Assembly: GCA_014189875.1 (NCBI GenBank)
Contig: BJFP01000004.1
Span: forward strand, 1-41,450
Origin: Verrucomicrobiota bacterium
Lineage (GTDB): Bacteria > Verrucomicrobiota > Verrucomicrobiia > Chthoniobacterales > Chthoniobacteraceae
Reading direction: 5' to 3'
Length of the DNA stretch: 41,450 nucleotides
Below are positions 3,764-24,632 of this stretch, piece after piece (position 1 is the stretch's first letter; every line of letters starts with the position of its first letter). Below the pieces are notes generated by a model. The model was not told the origin of the DNA, ran no database searches, and was given only the letters and a program-made list of their open reading frames with translations. Both the position numbers and the translations under genes were made by a program.

Positions 3764-3787
3764 AAAAAAGCACGGCTCTCAGAGCCG
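3764..3787 (-). terminator. Intrinsic terminator of the exbB-exbD-tonB-zinc ribbon operon
   Basis: CGGCTCTCAGAGCCG (3773-3787) is a near-perfect short palindrome overlapping the stop codon of the zinc-ribbon gene. On the minus strand it is followed by TGCTTTTTTG, i.e. a GC stem and a run of six T. This is the layout of a Rho-independent terminator for leftward transcription. Confidence 0.75.
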
Positions 3788-4018
3788 CGAGACCCGATCT
3801 CGGTTCGCGGGCGCGCCGCAGCACGGACAATGTGCGAGTTCGGAGCTGTTGCTGTCGCGAAACTCGAATGCGCAGAGATGGCACTTCACCAGCCCGCGGT
3901 GCGCGAGCCGTTCGCCGCGGCTGCGGCGGATGTTGTGCAGCACGGACGCGACGAAGATGATCGCGAGGCAGAGGCCGGCATAAACGAAGAGCAGCTCGTG
4001 GAGATCGAGGCGGAACAT
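3779..4018 (-). CDS. Small membrane-anchored zinc-ribbon protein
   Basis: This 79-residue protein has one N-terminal membrane helix (about residues 8-28, LLFVYAGLCLAIIFVASVL), a basic segment (HNIRRSRGERLAHRG), and then a cytoplasmic CxxC...CxxC pair: KCHLC at 45-49 and HCPCC at 63-67. This is consistent with a zinc ribbon tethered to the inner membrane. The ATG at 4018 is chosen because it directly precedes the membrane helix and lies 4 bases after the tonB-like stop. It is the last gene of the ExbB/ExbD/TonB operon. I do not recognise a named family. A role in assembly or regulation of the TonB-like complex is only a guess from position. Confidence 0.8.
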   Translation of the reverse strand: MFRLDLHELLFVYAGLCLAIIFVASVLHNIRRSRGERLAHRGLVKCHLCAFEFRDSNSSELAHCPCCGAPANRDRVSRL

Positions 4019-4022
4019 GCGG

Positions 4023-4790
4023 TTACCTCGGTGCCGCAGGTGCGATGATGTCGTCGCCCCACATGATCGTGACGGTGCCCCACACCACGCTGTCGCCCGT
4101 CTTGGAAAAATTCCGGGTGCGCACAAATGCGAGCGCGTCCCTGTCGAGCGCAGCATCGCCGGAAGCCTGCTGTAAAAACGCGAAGCGCGTCTCACCGTCG
4201 GCATTCACGCCCGCGAGCACGACCGTCGCCTGCACCGTCGCAGCCGTCTTCGCCGTCGCCGTGATGGCCCGCGGTTCCTTCACGCGCAGTTGCAGCGCCG
4301 CCGAGAATTCCACGCGGGTCGCCTGCGGCTGCGGTGCGGCAGGCGCGATTCTCTCCGACTGGGAGAGACTGCGGATCATCGCGAGCGGATCGCGGGCAGG
4401 AGGAATCTGGATCACCGGCGGATCGGGCGGCGCCCCGAGCGGCTGCGTGCGGATTTTCCGAAAAGACGGACGGTAGCGGATGTCGAGGAGTCCCGGCGGC
4501 TCGACGGCCTGCACTTTCGCGACGAGCGCGGGATCGTGTAGCGCGATCCATTGCAGCAGCGCGTCGGCCTCGGGATTGCGCTGCGACGGGTCGGCGGACG
4601 CGGCGAGGATCTGCACCATCGGCGCAGTGCGCACAGTGCGCGGCGGCACGGGATCCTTTCCCTGAAAAAGAAAGAACGCGGCGCTGTGCAGGAGGAACGA
4701 GATGAAGATGAACGCCACGAGCCACCAGGAGCTGCCCTCACGGTCGGCCCATGTGAAAATCACGGGCGTCTCGGCTTCCGTGTCGTTCAT
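4023..4790 (-). CDS. TonB-like energy-transducer protein
   Basis: This 255-residue protein has a short cytoplasmic N terminus, one membrane helix (about 20-42, SSWWLVAFIFISFLLHSAAFFLF), a long periplasmic stretch with Pro-rich parts (PPDPPVIQIPPARDP), and a C-terminal segment with ADGETRFAFLQQASGDAALDRDALAFVRTRNFS that resembles the TonB C-terminal fold. TonB proteins carry proton-motive energy from ExbB-ExbD to outer-membrane receptors. The ATG at 4790 overlaps the exbD-like stop as ATGA, showing translational coupling. The canonical YP box near the C terminus is not obvious, so it is a divergent TonB/TolA-type protein identified largely by context. Confidence 0.8.
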   Translation of the reverse strand: MNDTEAETPVIFTWADREGSSWWLVAFIFISFLLHSAAFFLFQGKDPVPPRTVRTAPMVQILAASADPSQRNPEADALLQWIALHDPALVAKVQAVEPPGLLDIRYRPSFRKIRTQPLGAPPDPPVIQIPPARDPLAMIRSLSQSERIAPAAPQPQATRVEFSAALQLRVKEPRAITATAKTAATVQATVVLAGVNADGETRFAFLQQASGDAALDRDALAFVRTRNFSKTGDSVVWGTVTIMWGDDIIAPAAPR

Positions 4791-5191
4791 TTTTTCGGGA
4801 TGTCGCCCGCGAGGATCACCGAGTAGCTGCGACGCAGCGCCTCGTCGGTCACGGCGGCTACGATGCCCGCGGGCGTGCCGGTGTCGGCCTTGATCACGAG
4901 CCATTTTTCCGCGGACTTGTTTTCGGAAAGTTTGCCGCGCAGCTCGTCCATCGTCACCTCGCGGTCGCGGTGATAGATCGCCGGAGCAGGCCCGCCGGTG
5001 ATGCTCACGATCTCCGCATTGCGCTGCGTGCCGAGCGCGAACGACGTGACCGGCAGGCTCACCTGCACGCCGGGCGTGAGCGTGAATTTCGTCCCGAGCA
5101 CATAGAAGACGAGCACGAGCACGAGCACGTTCATGAGCGGCATGATGCCGAACAGCGCGAGGTGAAAATGGTAGCCGCGTTCGAGCTTCAC
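4787..5191 (-). CDS. ExbD/TolR-like biopolymer transport protein with Asn at the key membrane position
   Basis: This 134-residue protein has one membrane helix (about 11-33) and a periplasmic domain whose end, KWLVIKADTGTPAGIVAAVTDEALRRSYSVILAG, matches the ExbD/TolR fold. The proposed start is GTG at 5191, two bases after the exbB-like stop; a longer in-frame reading would lie inside exbB. In ExbD and TolR the helix begins with a P-x-(I/V)-D motif whose Asp is essential for proton use. Here the aligned segment reads MPLMNVLVLVLVFYVL, with Asn21 (codon AAC) where Asp is expected. The rest of the ORF is intact. The protein may act in a non-canonical or unenergised complex. Confidence 0.85.
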   Translation of the reverse strand: MKLERGYHFHLALFGIMPLMNVLVLVLVFYVLGTKFTLTPGVQVSLPVTSFALGTQRNAEIVSITGGPAPAIYHRDREVTMDELRGKLSENKSAEKWLVIKADTGTPAGIVAAVTDEALRRSYSVILAGDIPKK

Positions 5192-5193
5192 GG

Positions 5194-5859
5194 TCAGATA
5201 TTTTCCGAGCGCCGCGGAGTCTCGCCGAACTCGATGATGTCCGGGTGCTGGCGGCTTTCCACGAGCAGGTTCACGACCTCGATTCCCGCGCGCTCCATGT
5301 CGTGGATGACCGCATTTGCCCGCGCGCTGAGATACGCGTAGGCCATCGCGCAAGGGATGCACACGGCGAGTCCCGAGGCGGTCGTGATGAGCGCCTGGTA
5401 GATCCCGTTGCCGATCTCGGCGGTGCTCGTCATGCCGGTCGTTGCGGCCATGCTCTTGAACGCCTCAAGCAATCCCGCGACCGTGCCGAGCAGCCCGAGC
5501 AGCGGCGTGAGAAAAGCGAGCGTGGCAAGCATTCCGAGCCGGCGTTCGAGCCGCGGCACCTCGAGCTGGCCGGCCTCCTCGACGATGTCCTTCAGCTCCG
5601 AGCGCGGCGCGCTGTGGCGGATGATCGCGGCATGGACGACACGCTGCACCGGCCCGCGCGTCGCAGCGGCCTCCATCTGCGCCTCCGAATAGCGGCGTCC
5701 GTGGATGAGGTTCGCGAGGCCGCGCATGAATTCGCCGACACGGACGCTGATGCGGTGAAAATACACCAGGCGCTCCAGGAACACGGCGCTGCCGAGCACG
5801 CTGCAGATGAGAATGAACCACATCACTGGGCCGCCCTTTTGCATGAAGTCGAGGAGCAT
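5194..5859 (-). CDS. MotA/TolQ/ExbB proton channel family protein
   Basis: This 221-residue protein has three predicted membrane segments: VMWFILICSVLGSAVFLERLVYF at 12-34, one near LATLAFLTPLLGLLGTVAGLLEAF at 111-134, and one near ALITTASGLAVCIPCAMAYAYL at 155-176. The TPLLGLLGT and ALxTTAxGL motifs with their conserved Thr residues are the ExbB/TolQ signature. It is the first gene of the leftward operon followed by exbD-like, tonB-like and zinc-ribbon genes, and is divergent from ruvC with an 85-base gap. It is the only intact ExbB homologue in the window; two further copies at 23-24 kb are broken. Confidence 0.93.
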   Translation of the reverse strand: MLLDFMQKGGPVMWFILICSVLGSAVFLERLVYFHRISVRVGEFMRGLANLIHGRRYSEAQMEAAATRGPVQRVVHAAIIRHSAPRSELKDIVEEAGQLEVPRLERRLGMLATLAFLTPLLGLLGTVAGLLEAFKSMAATTGMTSTAEIGNGIYQALITTASGLAVCIPCAMAYAYLSARANAVIHDMERAGIEVVNLLVESRQHPDIIEFGETPRRSENI

Positions 5860-20082: not shown

Positions 20083-22251
20083 ATGAAACACCCCATCCTC
20101 ACCACCACCATCGCCGCCCTCCTCGTGTCGTCTCTCGCACTCCACGCGGAAGATGCGCGCACGAAGCCAAAACAGAACGCACCATCCTCCGCGCAGAAGC
20201 TCCCGGAGACGGTCGTCAACTCACAGAAATACTCGCTCACTTCGCCCATGATCGAAGTGCGCCGCGAAGAAATCCAGCGCACGCCGGGCGGCGTGTCGCT
20301 GATTGATTCCGAGACTTACAAAAAGGGACGCGTGAACACGCTCAAGGACGCACTCGACTTCGCGCCGGGCGTGTTCGTGCAGCCGCGATTCGGCGCGGAC
20401 GAGGCGCGGCTTTCCATCCGCGGCTCGGGCATCCAGCGCACCTTCCACGGGCGCGGACTGAAGCTGCTGCAGGACGGCGTGCCGCTGAATCTCGCGGACG
20501 GCGGCTTCGACTTCCAGGCCGTCGAGCCGCTCTCGGCGCGCGCGGTGGAAGTGTATCGCGGTGCGAACGCGCTGGAGTTCGGCGGCACGACGCTCGGCGG
20601 GGCGATCAACTTCATTTCGCCGACCGGCTACGATGCGCCGCGGCTCACGCTGCGCGGGGAATTTGGCAGCTTCGGCACTTATCGCGGACAGATCGCGACG
20701 GCGGGCGTGCAGGGTGCATTCGACTACTACGTGAGCTTCTCGCACGCGTCGCAGGACGGCTTCCGCGAGCACAGTCAGCAGAGCACGCAGCGGCTCTCTG
20801 CCAACTTCGGCTACAAGCTCAGCGACACGCTGGAGACGCGCTTTTATGTGACCTATGCGAAGTCGGATTCCGAGCTGCCGGGCAATCTCACAAAGCTGCA
20901 GCTCGCGACGAATCCAATGGCCGCGCAGCGCAATGCATTCTTAAGAATCTTCGACAACGTGGACAGCAACTGGAAGCGCGACTACGACCTCTTCCGACTC
21001 GCGAACAAGACTACGTGGCAGGAAGGCGACCATCGTCTCACGCTCAGCACGTTCTGGTCATACAAGGATCTCGACCACCCGATCCTGTTCGTGATCGACC
21101 AGCTCTCGAACGACTTCGGCGCGAACCTGCGCTACGACTACTCGGGCGATCTCGCGGGTCATAAGAACCGCTTCACCATCGGCTTCAGCCCGACGTGGGG
21201 AATCGTGCAGGACAACCGCTTTGCCAACGTGCTCGGCCGGCGCGGCGCGAAGTTTGCCGACAATGAGCAGACCTCGCTGAACCTTGACCTGTACGCGCAG
21301 GACGAGTTCTGGCTGAATGACAAACTCGCGCTCGTGCTCGGCGCGCAGGCGTCCTACGCGCGGCGGCACAACCGGGATGATTTCCCGGTCGGCCCGGACA
21401 ACAGCGACACGCAGGACTTCTGGGGCTTCAGCCCGAAGGTGGGCCTGCTGTATCAGCCGCAGAAAAACGTGCAGGTCTTCGCAAATGTGAGCCGGAGCTT
21501 CGAGCCGCCATCCTTCGGCGAGCTGACGAACGCAGCGAACAATGGCCGCGGCCTCGTGAGGCTGGACGCGCAGACCGGCACGACGGTCGAAGTCGGCACG
21601 CGCGGACGCAGCGGGCGCTTCTCGTGGGACTTCGCGTACTACTACAGTTGGCTCGACAACGAGCTGCTGGAATTCCAAGTCGCACCCGGACTCACGCAGA
21701 CGGTGAACGCGGGCCGGACGATTCATCAGGGCATCGAGCTGGGCTTCGATTTCGATGTGGCGCGCGGCATTTTCTCCCACGCTGGCGCGGAGATCAAACC
21801 GCACGACGGAAAAGGTGCGACACCGCTTGAGAAGGAGAGCGACCGTATCGTCCTGCGCACAGCGTATCTTTGGAATGACTTCCGCTACGACGGCGACAGC
21901 ACCTACGGCAACGGCCTGCTCGCCGGCACGCCAGAGCACTACCTGCGCGCGGAGCTGATGTATGAACACCCGTGCGGATTCTACGCCGGGCCCAACGTGG
22001 AATACGTGCCGAAAGGCTACCGCGTGGATGCGCGCGGCACACTTTTCACCGACGCCTACGCGCTGCTCGGCGCAAAGATCGGCTGGCGTGGCAAGCGCGG
22101 CGTGTCGGTGTATTTCGAGGCGAAGAACCTGACGGACGAACGCTACGCGGCGACCACGGGCGTCGTGAGCGCGATCACTCCGCTCAATAGCGCGCAGTTC
22201 CTGCCCGGGGACGGGCGCGGCTTCTTCGGCGGCGTCGAGTTCCGCTGGTAG
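20083..22251 (+). CDS. TonB-dependent outer-membrane receptor
   Basis: This 722-residue protein has a signal peptide (HPILTTTIAALLVSSLALHA), a possible TonB box near LPETVVNSQ, a plug domain (about 65-175, NTLKDALDFAPGVFVQPRFGADEARLSIRGSG and VEVYRGANALEFGGTTLGGAINFISPTG), and a 22-strand-type barrel (about 180-722). It ends with the receptor signature NLTDERYAATTGVV and a terminal aromatic strand GGVEFRW. Receptors of this type import ferric siderophores or other scarce ligands using TonB energy. A PepSY membrane protein follows, as in many siderophore loci, so iron is plausible. The local exbB copies are broken, so energy would have to come from another TonB system such as 4023-5859. Confidence 0.95.
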   Translation: MKHPILTTTIAALLVSSLALHAEDARTKPKQNAPSSAQKLPETVVNSQKYSLTSPMIEVRREEIQRTPGGVSLIDSETYKKGRVNTLKDALDFAPGVFVQPRFGADEARLSIRGSGIQRTFHGRGLKLLQDGVPLNLADGGFDFQAVEPLSARAVEVYRGANALEFGGTTLGGAINFISPTGYDAPRLTLRGEFGSFGTYRGQIATAGVQGAFDYYVSFSHASQDGFREHSQQSTQRLSANFGYKLSDTLETRFYVTYAKSDSELPGNLTKLQLATNPMAAQRNAFLRIFDNVDSNWKRDYDLFRLANKTTWQEGDHRLTLSTFWSYKDLDHPILFVIDQLSNDFGANLRYDYSGDLAGHKNRFTIGFSPTWGIVQDNRFANVLGRRGAKFADNEQTSLNLDLYAQDEFWLNDKLALVLGAQASYARRHNRDDFPVGPDNSDTQDFWGFSPKVGLLYQPQKNVQVFANVSRSFEPPSFGELTNAANNGRGLVRLDAQTGTTVEVGTRGRSGRFSWDFAYYYSWLDNELLEFQVAPGLTQTVNAGRTIHQGIELGFDFDVARGIFSHAGAEIKPHDGKGATPLEKESDRIVLRTAYLWNDFRYDGDSTYGNGLLAGTPEHYLRAELMYEHPCGFYAGPNVEYVPKGYRVDARGTLFTDAYALLGAKIGWRGKRGVSVYFEAKNLTDERYAATTGVVSAITPLNSAQFLPGDGRGFFGGVEFRW

Positions 22252-22321
22252 CCGGAAAAAATCCATCGCGGGGGCGGTGCTGCTCGGAATGATGAGCACG
22301 CCGCCCCCGCATTTTCCCACG

Positions 22322-23026
22322 ATGAAACCAAACACCATCCGCAAACTCCACCGCTGGCTCGGGCTGCTCTTCAGCGTCAGCATTCTCATGTCGGCGCTGA
22401 GCGGCGTGATTCACACCGTCATGACCCGCACGCAGGCCCCTCCCCCGCCCGCGCGCCCGAGCGGCGGCGGTCTCGATCCCGCGGCCATCCGCGTGAGCGT
22501 GGCCGATGCGATCGCGAAACTCCCTGCGGAATCCCGCGCAGTGCATGCCGTGAATCTCCGCGGCATCGGCGGCGAACCGTGGTATCAGATCTACGGAGGG
22601 GCTAAGGGCGTTCCTTTCTACGTGAGTGCCGGCGATGGCCACGTGGACCCCGCGCAGGATGAACGCTACGCGACCGAAATCGCGTCCGCATTTCTCGGCG
22701 GTGCCAAGGTCACGAAGACGGGCTACCTCACGGCATTCGACAACGAATACATCAATATCTTCCGCGTCCTACCCGTGTATCGCTTCGCCGCAAATGACGC
22801 GCTGGAGACCCGCGTGTATGTGAGCACCGTCACCGGCAGCGTGACGCGACACACGGACAAGCAGCGGCAGTTCGAGGCGAACATCTTCACGAACTTCCAC
22901 AAGCTCGGCTTCATCCCGGACAAAAATTTCCGCGACTTCATCCTCGCCTTTCTCACCGGCGGCACTGCGCTCGCAGCGCTTGCCGGAATCGTGCTGTTCT
23001 TCGCCACGCGCCCGCGGCGGCAGTGA
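22322..23026 (+). CDS. PepSY-domain inner-membrane protein
   Basis: This 234-residue protein begins MKPNTIRKLHRWLGLLFSVSILMSALSGVIH, the RxLHRWxGL start of PepSY-associated membrane proteins. A periplasmic domain follows, with YVSTVTGSVTRHTDKQRQFEANIFTNFHKLGFIP, and then a second helix (FILAFLTGGTALAALAGIVLFFAT). ATG 22322 is chosen over the upstream frame start at 22277 because the family homology starts there. Members of this family often accompany siderophore receptors and may take part in ferric reduction. It is 70 bases from the TonB receptor and probably in the same operon. Confidence 0.9.
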   Translation: MKPNTIRKLHRWLGLLFSVSILMSALSGVIHTVMTRTQAPPPPARPSGGGLDPAAIRVSVADAIAKLPAESRAVHAVNLRGIGGEPWYQIYGGAKGVPFYVSAGDGHVDPAQDERYATEIASAFLGGAKVTKTGYLTAFDNEYINIFRVLPVYRFAANDALETRVYVSTVTGSVTRHTDKQRQFEANIFTNFHKLGFIPDKNFRDFILAFLTGGTALAALAGIVLFFATRPRRQ

Positions 23027-23908: not shown

Positions 23909-24359
23909 ATGCTCGAATTTTTCTACACAGGCGGCCCCATCATGTTGCCGCTGCTCGTCATCTCCGTCGTCGCGCTCACGGTGGCGCTGGAGCGGCTCAT
24001 TTTCATCGCGCGTGACAAGGCGCGACGCTCCGCGGCGGATGTAGATGAGATGCTCACGCAGGTGGAGCGCGGCGACCTCGATGCGGCGGCAAACATGGGC
24101 ATCACGTCGCGCGACTTTGTGGCGCGCGCTCGCGTATGCGCTCACGCACCGCGGGCGGCCGTTCAGCGAGGCGATGCTGCGCGCGGCGAACTGGAAACTG
24201 AAGCGCTTCAACCGCGGCCTGACGATCCTAGACACGACGATCCCGCTCGCACCGCTGGTCGGTCTGCTCGGGACGGTGACGGGGATGATCCGCAGCTTTG
24301 GCATGCTCGGCGGCGCGGAACTCGGCGCGCCCGCGGCGATCGCCGGAGGCATCGCGGAG
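23909..24359 (+). pseudogene. exbB-like pseudogene, copy 2
   Basis: MLEFFYTGGPIMLPLLVISVVALTVALERLIFIARDKARRSAADVDEMLTQVERGDLDAAANMGITSRDFVARA is in one frame. Two bases are then missing in a GCGCGCGCGC-type run (24122-24128), shifting the frame. The homology continues as LAYALTHRGRPFSEAMLRAANWKLKRFNRGLTILDTTIPLAPLVGLLGTVTGMIRSFGMLGGAELGAPAAIAGGIAE, including the second helix and part of the Thr motif. At about 24359 it is cut and joined to transposase-like sequence. The lesion differs from copy 1 in both site and type. Confidence 0.88.
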
Positions 24360-24632
24360 CTTGGCGCGCACCGCGAAGCGCCCAGAGTGGCCGATGAAAA
24401 CGCCCCCGTGCGAGCCGCGCACCGCTACATTGCCAACCGGCACGGCACCCTCGATTACGCCGCAGCCATCGCCGCCGGACTGCCCATCGGCAGCGGCCTC
24501 ATCGAGTCGGGACACAAGCATGTGCTCCAAGCGCGGCTCAAACTTCCCGGCTGCGCCTGGCTGCCCTCCAACGCCGAATCCATCGCCCAGCTTCGCGTCG
24601 TCCGTTCAAACGATCGCTGGCAAGACCTCTAA
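24360..24632 (+). mobile_element. 3' fragment of a DDE-type transposase gene fused to exbB copy 2
   Basis: The frame continues from the exbB fragment into AHRYIANRHGTLDYAAAIAAGLPIGSGLIESGHKHVLQARLKLPGCAWLPSNAESIAQLRVVRSNDRWQDL. The GLPIGSGxIES segment, the following K, and the RLKxPGxxW block are typical of the C-terminal end of ISKra4-like transposases, including the last catalytic Glu. Only about 75-90 codons remain. No terminal inverted repeats were found around it. This is a remnant, and it marks a past insertion that truncated the exbB copy. Confidence 0.75.

Follow-up and report, generated by a model that had tools for sequence, protein, structure and literature searches.

An operon of Ton-like genes in a verrucomicrobial genome encodes an ExbD-like protein with asparagine, Asn21, at the position of the membrane aspartate that is essential in ExbD and TolR. 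The operon is on a stretch of 41,450 nucleotides (termed the window), part of a draft genome of 4.93 Mb in 746 contigs (G000). Sequence comparisons point, with a probability of about one half, to a Ton-derived trans-envelope module whose work may no longer need the canonical aspartate proton cycle. The operon is apparently a class-wide, vertically inherited Ton-like module of Chthoniobacterales and related Verrucomicrobiota, and loss of the aspartate is recurrent across the class. No description of the operon was found in the literature searched. Its features in the window are:

5194–5859, minus strand: exbB-like gene, 221 aa, MotA/TolQ/ExbB family (Pfam PF01618; aligned with TolQ/ExbB structures)
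4787–5191, minus strand: exbD-like gene, 134 aa, GTG start at 5191, with Asn21 replacing the essential Asp (Pfam PF02472, profile match, fold)
5129–5131, minus strand: codon 21 of the exbD-like gene, AAC (Asn), aligned with ExbD Asp25 and TolR Asp23
4023–4790, minus strand: tonB-like gene, 255 aa (TIGR01352 below cut-off; orthologue matches; model matches TonB C-terminal domains)
3779–4018, minus strand: fourth operon gene, a 79-aa single-helix zinc-ribbon protein (CxxC...CPxC; Cys46, 49, 64 and 67)
3771–3789, minus strand: terminator-like hairpin and T-rich tail at the end of the fourth gene (hairpin count not above that of shuffled sequences, so that the placement is suggestive only)

Position of Asn21 and the operon genes

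The exbD-like gene is read from the minus strand and its coordinates are right; the plus-strand translation of the same region is unrelated. Asn21 sits in 'FGIMPLMNVLVLVLVFYVLG', inside a predicted helix of residues 11–35. Modelling predicts that this is the one membrane helix, N-terminal, and that alternating strands and helices of the periplasmic fold follow. The protein scores 38.4 bits with the Pfam ExbD/TolR family (PF02472), where the curated cut-off is 25.4. The top Foldseek match of the model is the ExbD periplasmic domain 8pek, with a TM-score of 0.66 (by target length) and an E value of only 0.015. A profile of orthologues puts Asn21 on the Asp of '(T)PFIDV' in the ExbD of E. coli (6tyi) and Serratia (7ajq). 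The first-pass annotation had placed an AAC-encoded Asn21 at the essential Asp position of ExbD/TolR, and both translation and profile alignment bear this out; no alignment places a different Asp at the site. In the window protein translation, the membrane helix has no other Asp or Glu. The membrane Asp that is the criterion for ExbD and TolR is thus lacking, Asn21 being found instead, and by its sequence the protein is an ExbD homologue and not a canonical proton-driven ExbD.

The order of the operon is exbB, exbD, tonB-like gene and zinc-ribbon gene, tightly packed. The upstream exbB is separated from exbD by two bases, and the start of the tonB-like gene overlaps the exbD stop (ATGA). The ExbB-, ExbD- and TonB-like operon that was recognized at first pass is a tight one, to which a fourth gene has to be added.

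The ExbB-like protein has 100.6 bits with PF01618 (cut-off 22.9). Thr126 in TM2 (5482–5484) and Thr160 in TM3 (5380–5382) are kept at the positions of E. coli Thr148 and Thr181, and the TM2 Thr is retained in 151 of 152 orthologues. The position of E. coli ExbB Glu176 is Gln155 in the window (5395–5397), and just 29 of 152 orthologues have Glu there.

In the TonB-like protein, the membrane residues Ser31 and His35 (His codon 4686–4688) have the spacing of TonB Ser16 and His20, and the His is kept in 132 of 150 orthologues. The window protein misses the curated TonB cut-offs, with no Pfam match and 20.6 bits for TIGR01352 (cut-off 27.1). Its orthologues match TonB_C/TIGR01352, and its C-terminal domain (about residues 150–250) gives a high-confidence model, which Foldseek matches best to C-terminal domains of TonB (lowest E value 0.018). 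The gene was detected in 150 of 155 loci, and the zinc-ribbon gene is downstream in 136 of the 155. The four Cys of the zinc-ribbon protein are invariant in 29 aligned orthologues, with the other positions variable; orthologues match zinc-ribbon models, and no full-length family match was obtained. This undescribed partner gene, revealed by the operon, is a conserved fourth member of it across the class.

A second exbB-like gene in the window (23909–24632, plus strand) is broken. By eye, it consists of an N-terminal part, a frame change and a tail resembling a transposase remnant. It is near a TonB-dependent receptor gene (20083–22251) and the gene of a PepSY-type-looking membrane protein (22277–23026), and no match to exbD was found beside it.

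Fixation in the family and occurrence across the class

Asn is found at the site in 36/36 orthologues sampled from the window's family, encoded by AAC in 28 and AAT in eight, and its column is one of 12 that are invariant among 129. Pairwise dN/dS values of close pairs are 0.01–0.13, and the gene is under strong purifying selection in this family. The ExbD paralogues differ: Asp is present in all 57 distinct proteins sampled from the window genome and related genomes. The window genome has nine other ExbD proteins, all with Asp, and an Asp-bearing ExbD is present in every genome checked. Since Asn is family-wide and all paralogues have Asp, the substitution is an old one, fixed and confined to a single ExbD lineage.

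It should be pointed out that AAC is one base away from GAC and that the assembly is a draft in hundreds of contigs, which would suit an artefact, be it a sequencing error, a misalignment or post-translational deamidation of Asn to Asp. But with Asn in 36 independent genomes and two codons in use, sequencing error, which had been raised at first pass, is excluded for practical purposes, and an artefact at the DNA level is refuted. In addition, the profile aligns with solved ExbD without ambiguity in the region of the site, and deamidation is impossible for the Thr, Ser, Gly and Ala variants found in other lineages. An artefact of any of these kinds is hardly credible.

The gene might also be viewed as a redundant Ton paralogue that decays slowly under relaxed selection, the nine other ExbD genes being sufficient for the cell. 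The Asp-bearing paralogues would fit this, as would the several substitutes seen at the site class-wide and the few genomes that are without the gene. However, the low dN/dS values and an Asn that is invariant across 36 species are not signs of decay, the gene is found in 206 of the 213 genomes of the order, and the operon is kept even in a 0.9-Mb genome with two ExbD genes (G041, see below). Relaxed selection is thus distinctly improbable as an explanation.

Beyond the order, the ExbD-like orthologue is present in many families of the class. An ExbB profile scan of genome contigs gave two named relatives, both Spartobacteria MAGs, and a search of a phage collection gave no match. The class-wide tally covers 155 orthologous loci from 153 genomes of the order and class; at the class level the best-scoring loci were chosen, and synteny is the basis for calling them orthologous, the four-gene order being identical in most. 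The residues at the site are Asn (64 loci), Asp (58), Thr (12), Ser (7), Gly (6), Glu (4), Gln (2), Cys (1) and Ala (1), i.e. 62 acid and 93 non-acid. A tree built from 152 rows of concatenated ExbB and ExbD, with the ExbD site removed, requires at least 14 changes between acid and non-acid, a count that cannot separate gain from loss. Loss of Asp is the likely main direction, because all paralogues have Asp.

Almost every member of family f8 retains Asp with the same operon, as do the majority of f5 and some of f6, and proton coupling is thus plausible there at least. Some members of f13, f6 and f4 have Gly or Ala, and therefore a polar substitute is not generally required.

Several smaller groups deserve mention in their own right. 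In genus g26 (f5), Glu replaces Asp in 4/4 sampled genomes (L037, L082, L083 and L089), and the sister genera have Asp. Two genomes of f8 (G156 and G162; loci L110–L113) contain two operon copies each, all with Asp, and these four copies have lost the Pro three residues before the site, showing GLVD or ALxD instead of PLxD. Four loci, L135 and L138 (f6) and L148 and L155 (f4), come from single genomes with Gln, Gly or Cys whose relatives have Asp or Asn, and they represent useful material for fine-scale comparison.

Compensation, co-erosion and TonB-dependent receptors

The first-pass annotation had offered three options: that the complex works without a proton-carrying Asp, that it uses another residue, or that it is not energised. 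When ExbB, ExbD, the TonB-like protein and the fourth protein were compared with those of the Asp lineages, no acidic membrane residue was found to have been gained in the Asn lineage. A compensating acid in the helix of ExbB, the TonB-like protein or the zinc-ribbon protein was thus rejected. With no acid gained, the use of another residue appears weakened as far as the sequences go, and the first and third options would stay live.

Strict covariation of Asn with a change of the ExbB Glu to Gln was also rejected, as Gln or Lys is the rule beside Asp as well (p = 0.21). ExbB Gln155 is no response to Asn, since Gln or Lys is usual in the Asp lineages.

Perhaps ions are still conducted by another path, through water and polar side chains (Asn, Thr or Ser at the site together with the ExbB Thr ring) or through a carboxylate such as ExbB E132. 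The near-universal TM2 Thr and a TM3 Thr that is kept in most Asn lineages are consistent with such a path, and where Asp is replaced, the site is most often occupied by Asn, Thr or Ser. At E132, an acidic residue is found in 86% of the window's family vs 60% of the Asp-bearing rows. The position is variable, however, with E, D, Q and K all occurring, and ExbB E29 does not vary in either the Asn family or the Asp lineages. The lineages with Gly or Ala at the site also speak against the proposal, as does the finding that E. coli ExbD is inactive when it carries Asn here (PMC11658791). An alternative ion path is rather unlikely on balance.

Other parts of the apparatus have changed in some lineages. 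The ExbB TM3 Thr is replaced by Ala in 0/62 acid rows, 8/63 Asn rows and 17/27 other rows (T/S/G/A/C/Q), and 15/88 non-acid rows have lost the TonB-like His vs 3/62 acid rows. In genus g45 (f13), the ExbD Asp, the ExbB Thr and the TonB-like His have all changed, the His to Gln. By plain counts, p values for co-loss with Asp are about 1e-11 for the TM3 Thr and 0.04 for the His. These losses are clustered by kinship, and co-loss of Asp with either residue is not significant in independent pairs. Further erosion of the apparatus beside a non-acid site is therefore suggestive only. The window's family has largely preserved the ExbB Thr ring and the TonB-like His, and this would be unexpected if the motor had been dead for a long time.

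Of 82 operon-bearing genomes, 21 gave no match for the receptor plug domain, among them the single-contig genome G041 (0.9 Mb). A second receptor model gave no match in the five plug-less genomes tested with it (G041, G190, G194, G091 and G044). The window's own genome has TonB-dependent receptors. Single absences are weak evidence, because many of the genomes are incomplete drafts; nevertheless, since the operon is kept where receptors are not detectable, it is apparently not tied to TonB-dependent import everywhere. Receptors are absent from 16/51 non-acid vs 5/31 acid genomes (p = 0.19). Receptor loss as an explanation of Asp loss was rejected, there being a trend only and no significance in independent pairs.

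G041 contains exactly two ExbB and two ExbD, and its operon carries the Ser variant. A second 0.9-Mb single-contig genome of the same genus, G050, gave no match to the operon, and it keeps a single Asp-bearing ExbB–ExbD pair. The two genomes offer a natural presence/absence contrast for the operon.

The co-occurrence with Asp-bearing paralogues raises the question of whether the Asn protein pairs with one of them. In such a mixed dimer one helix would be permanently 'protonated', and the motor would be asymmetric yet energised. Heterologous TolR-like pairs exist in PVC bacteria (PMC12204202), and an Asp-bearing partner is at hand in every genome checked, even in G041 with its two ExbB and two ExbD. 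However, almost every locus carries a cognate exbB of its own immediately upstream, the nearest paralogues are about 25–34% identical over part of the protein only, and the Asp found in many orthologues of the same operon makes a pairing rule inconsistent. Mixed dimers thus seem improbable.

Proposed function and comparison with known systems

The preferred reading is that of a Ton-derived module that may do its work without the aspartate proton cycle. In ExbD, TolR and PomB the membrane Asp is 'absolutely required for activity' (PMC12905483). ExbD(D25N) is inactive in E. coli (PMC11658791), and the D22N substitution makes MotB resemble its protonated state (PMC9389320). On these three grounds, the conserved Asn is best read as a protonated-like locked state, and by analogy the window-family ExbD is best seen as a naturally occurring equivalent of E. 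coli ExbD D25N, which is inactive.

The ExbB ring probably assembles around the ExbD helix pair, and the TonB-like protein would probably dock on ExbB TM1 and reach toward the outer membrane. Chemically, the fixed Asn would resemble an Asp that is always protonated, as it does in the D22N and D25N laboratory mutants. The pump cycle would then most likely be off, without proton coupling, and the complex might be an assembled, non-cycling trans-envelope scaffold or tether in which the zinc-ribbon protein may take part. The gene set may be looked at as a natural version of the motor that works without the usual proton step. A broader proposal, put forward tentatively and with some doubt, is that, in repeated independent events within the Verrucomicrobiota class, a whole Ton/Tol/Mot branch became a trans-envelope module that works independently of protons and carries an additional zinc-ribbon subunit in the membrane, and that it represents a selected natural 5:2 assembly without the pore carboxylate.

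The aspartate of ExbD, TolR and MotB is regarded as the catalytic residue that defines these 5:2 motors (PMC12905483). An operon with repeated Asp loss beside Asp-bearing orthologues allows a comparison of the parts that serve proton coupling with those that serve assembly or tethering. It also calls for caution in annotation, as the name 'ExbD' in these bacteria need not signify an energised importer.

The resemblance to the Ton system of E. coli and Serratia is in the three homologous proteins encoded by adjacent genes, the ExbD periplasmic fold, the ExbB Thr ring, and the Ser/His pair and C-terminal fold of TonB. The operon differs from Ton in that ExbD Asp25 is Asn and the ExbB Glu176 position is Gln, in the presence of the fourth, zinc-ribbon gene, and in being kept in genomes with no detectable TonB-dependent receptors. 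TolQ-TolR-TolA belongs to the same motor superfamily, and the window ExbB-like protein scores best against TolQ; however, TolR Asp23 is replaced here, and the third protein has a C-terminal domain that matches TonB better than TolA. GldLM and the TolQ-vWA pairs of PVC and other bacteria (PMC12204202) are likewise diverged relatives of the ExbBD/TolQR core, with unusual inner subunits in 5:2 motors, but the pore helix of the TolQ-vWA pairs still has an Asp, whereas none was found in that of the window's ExbD-like protein. The laboratory mutants ExbD D25N and MotB D22N have the identical substitution, with an Asn that mimics protonated Asp. These mutants were engineered, and ExbD D25N is inactive, whereas the Asn of the window is natural, fixed in its family and under purifying selection.
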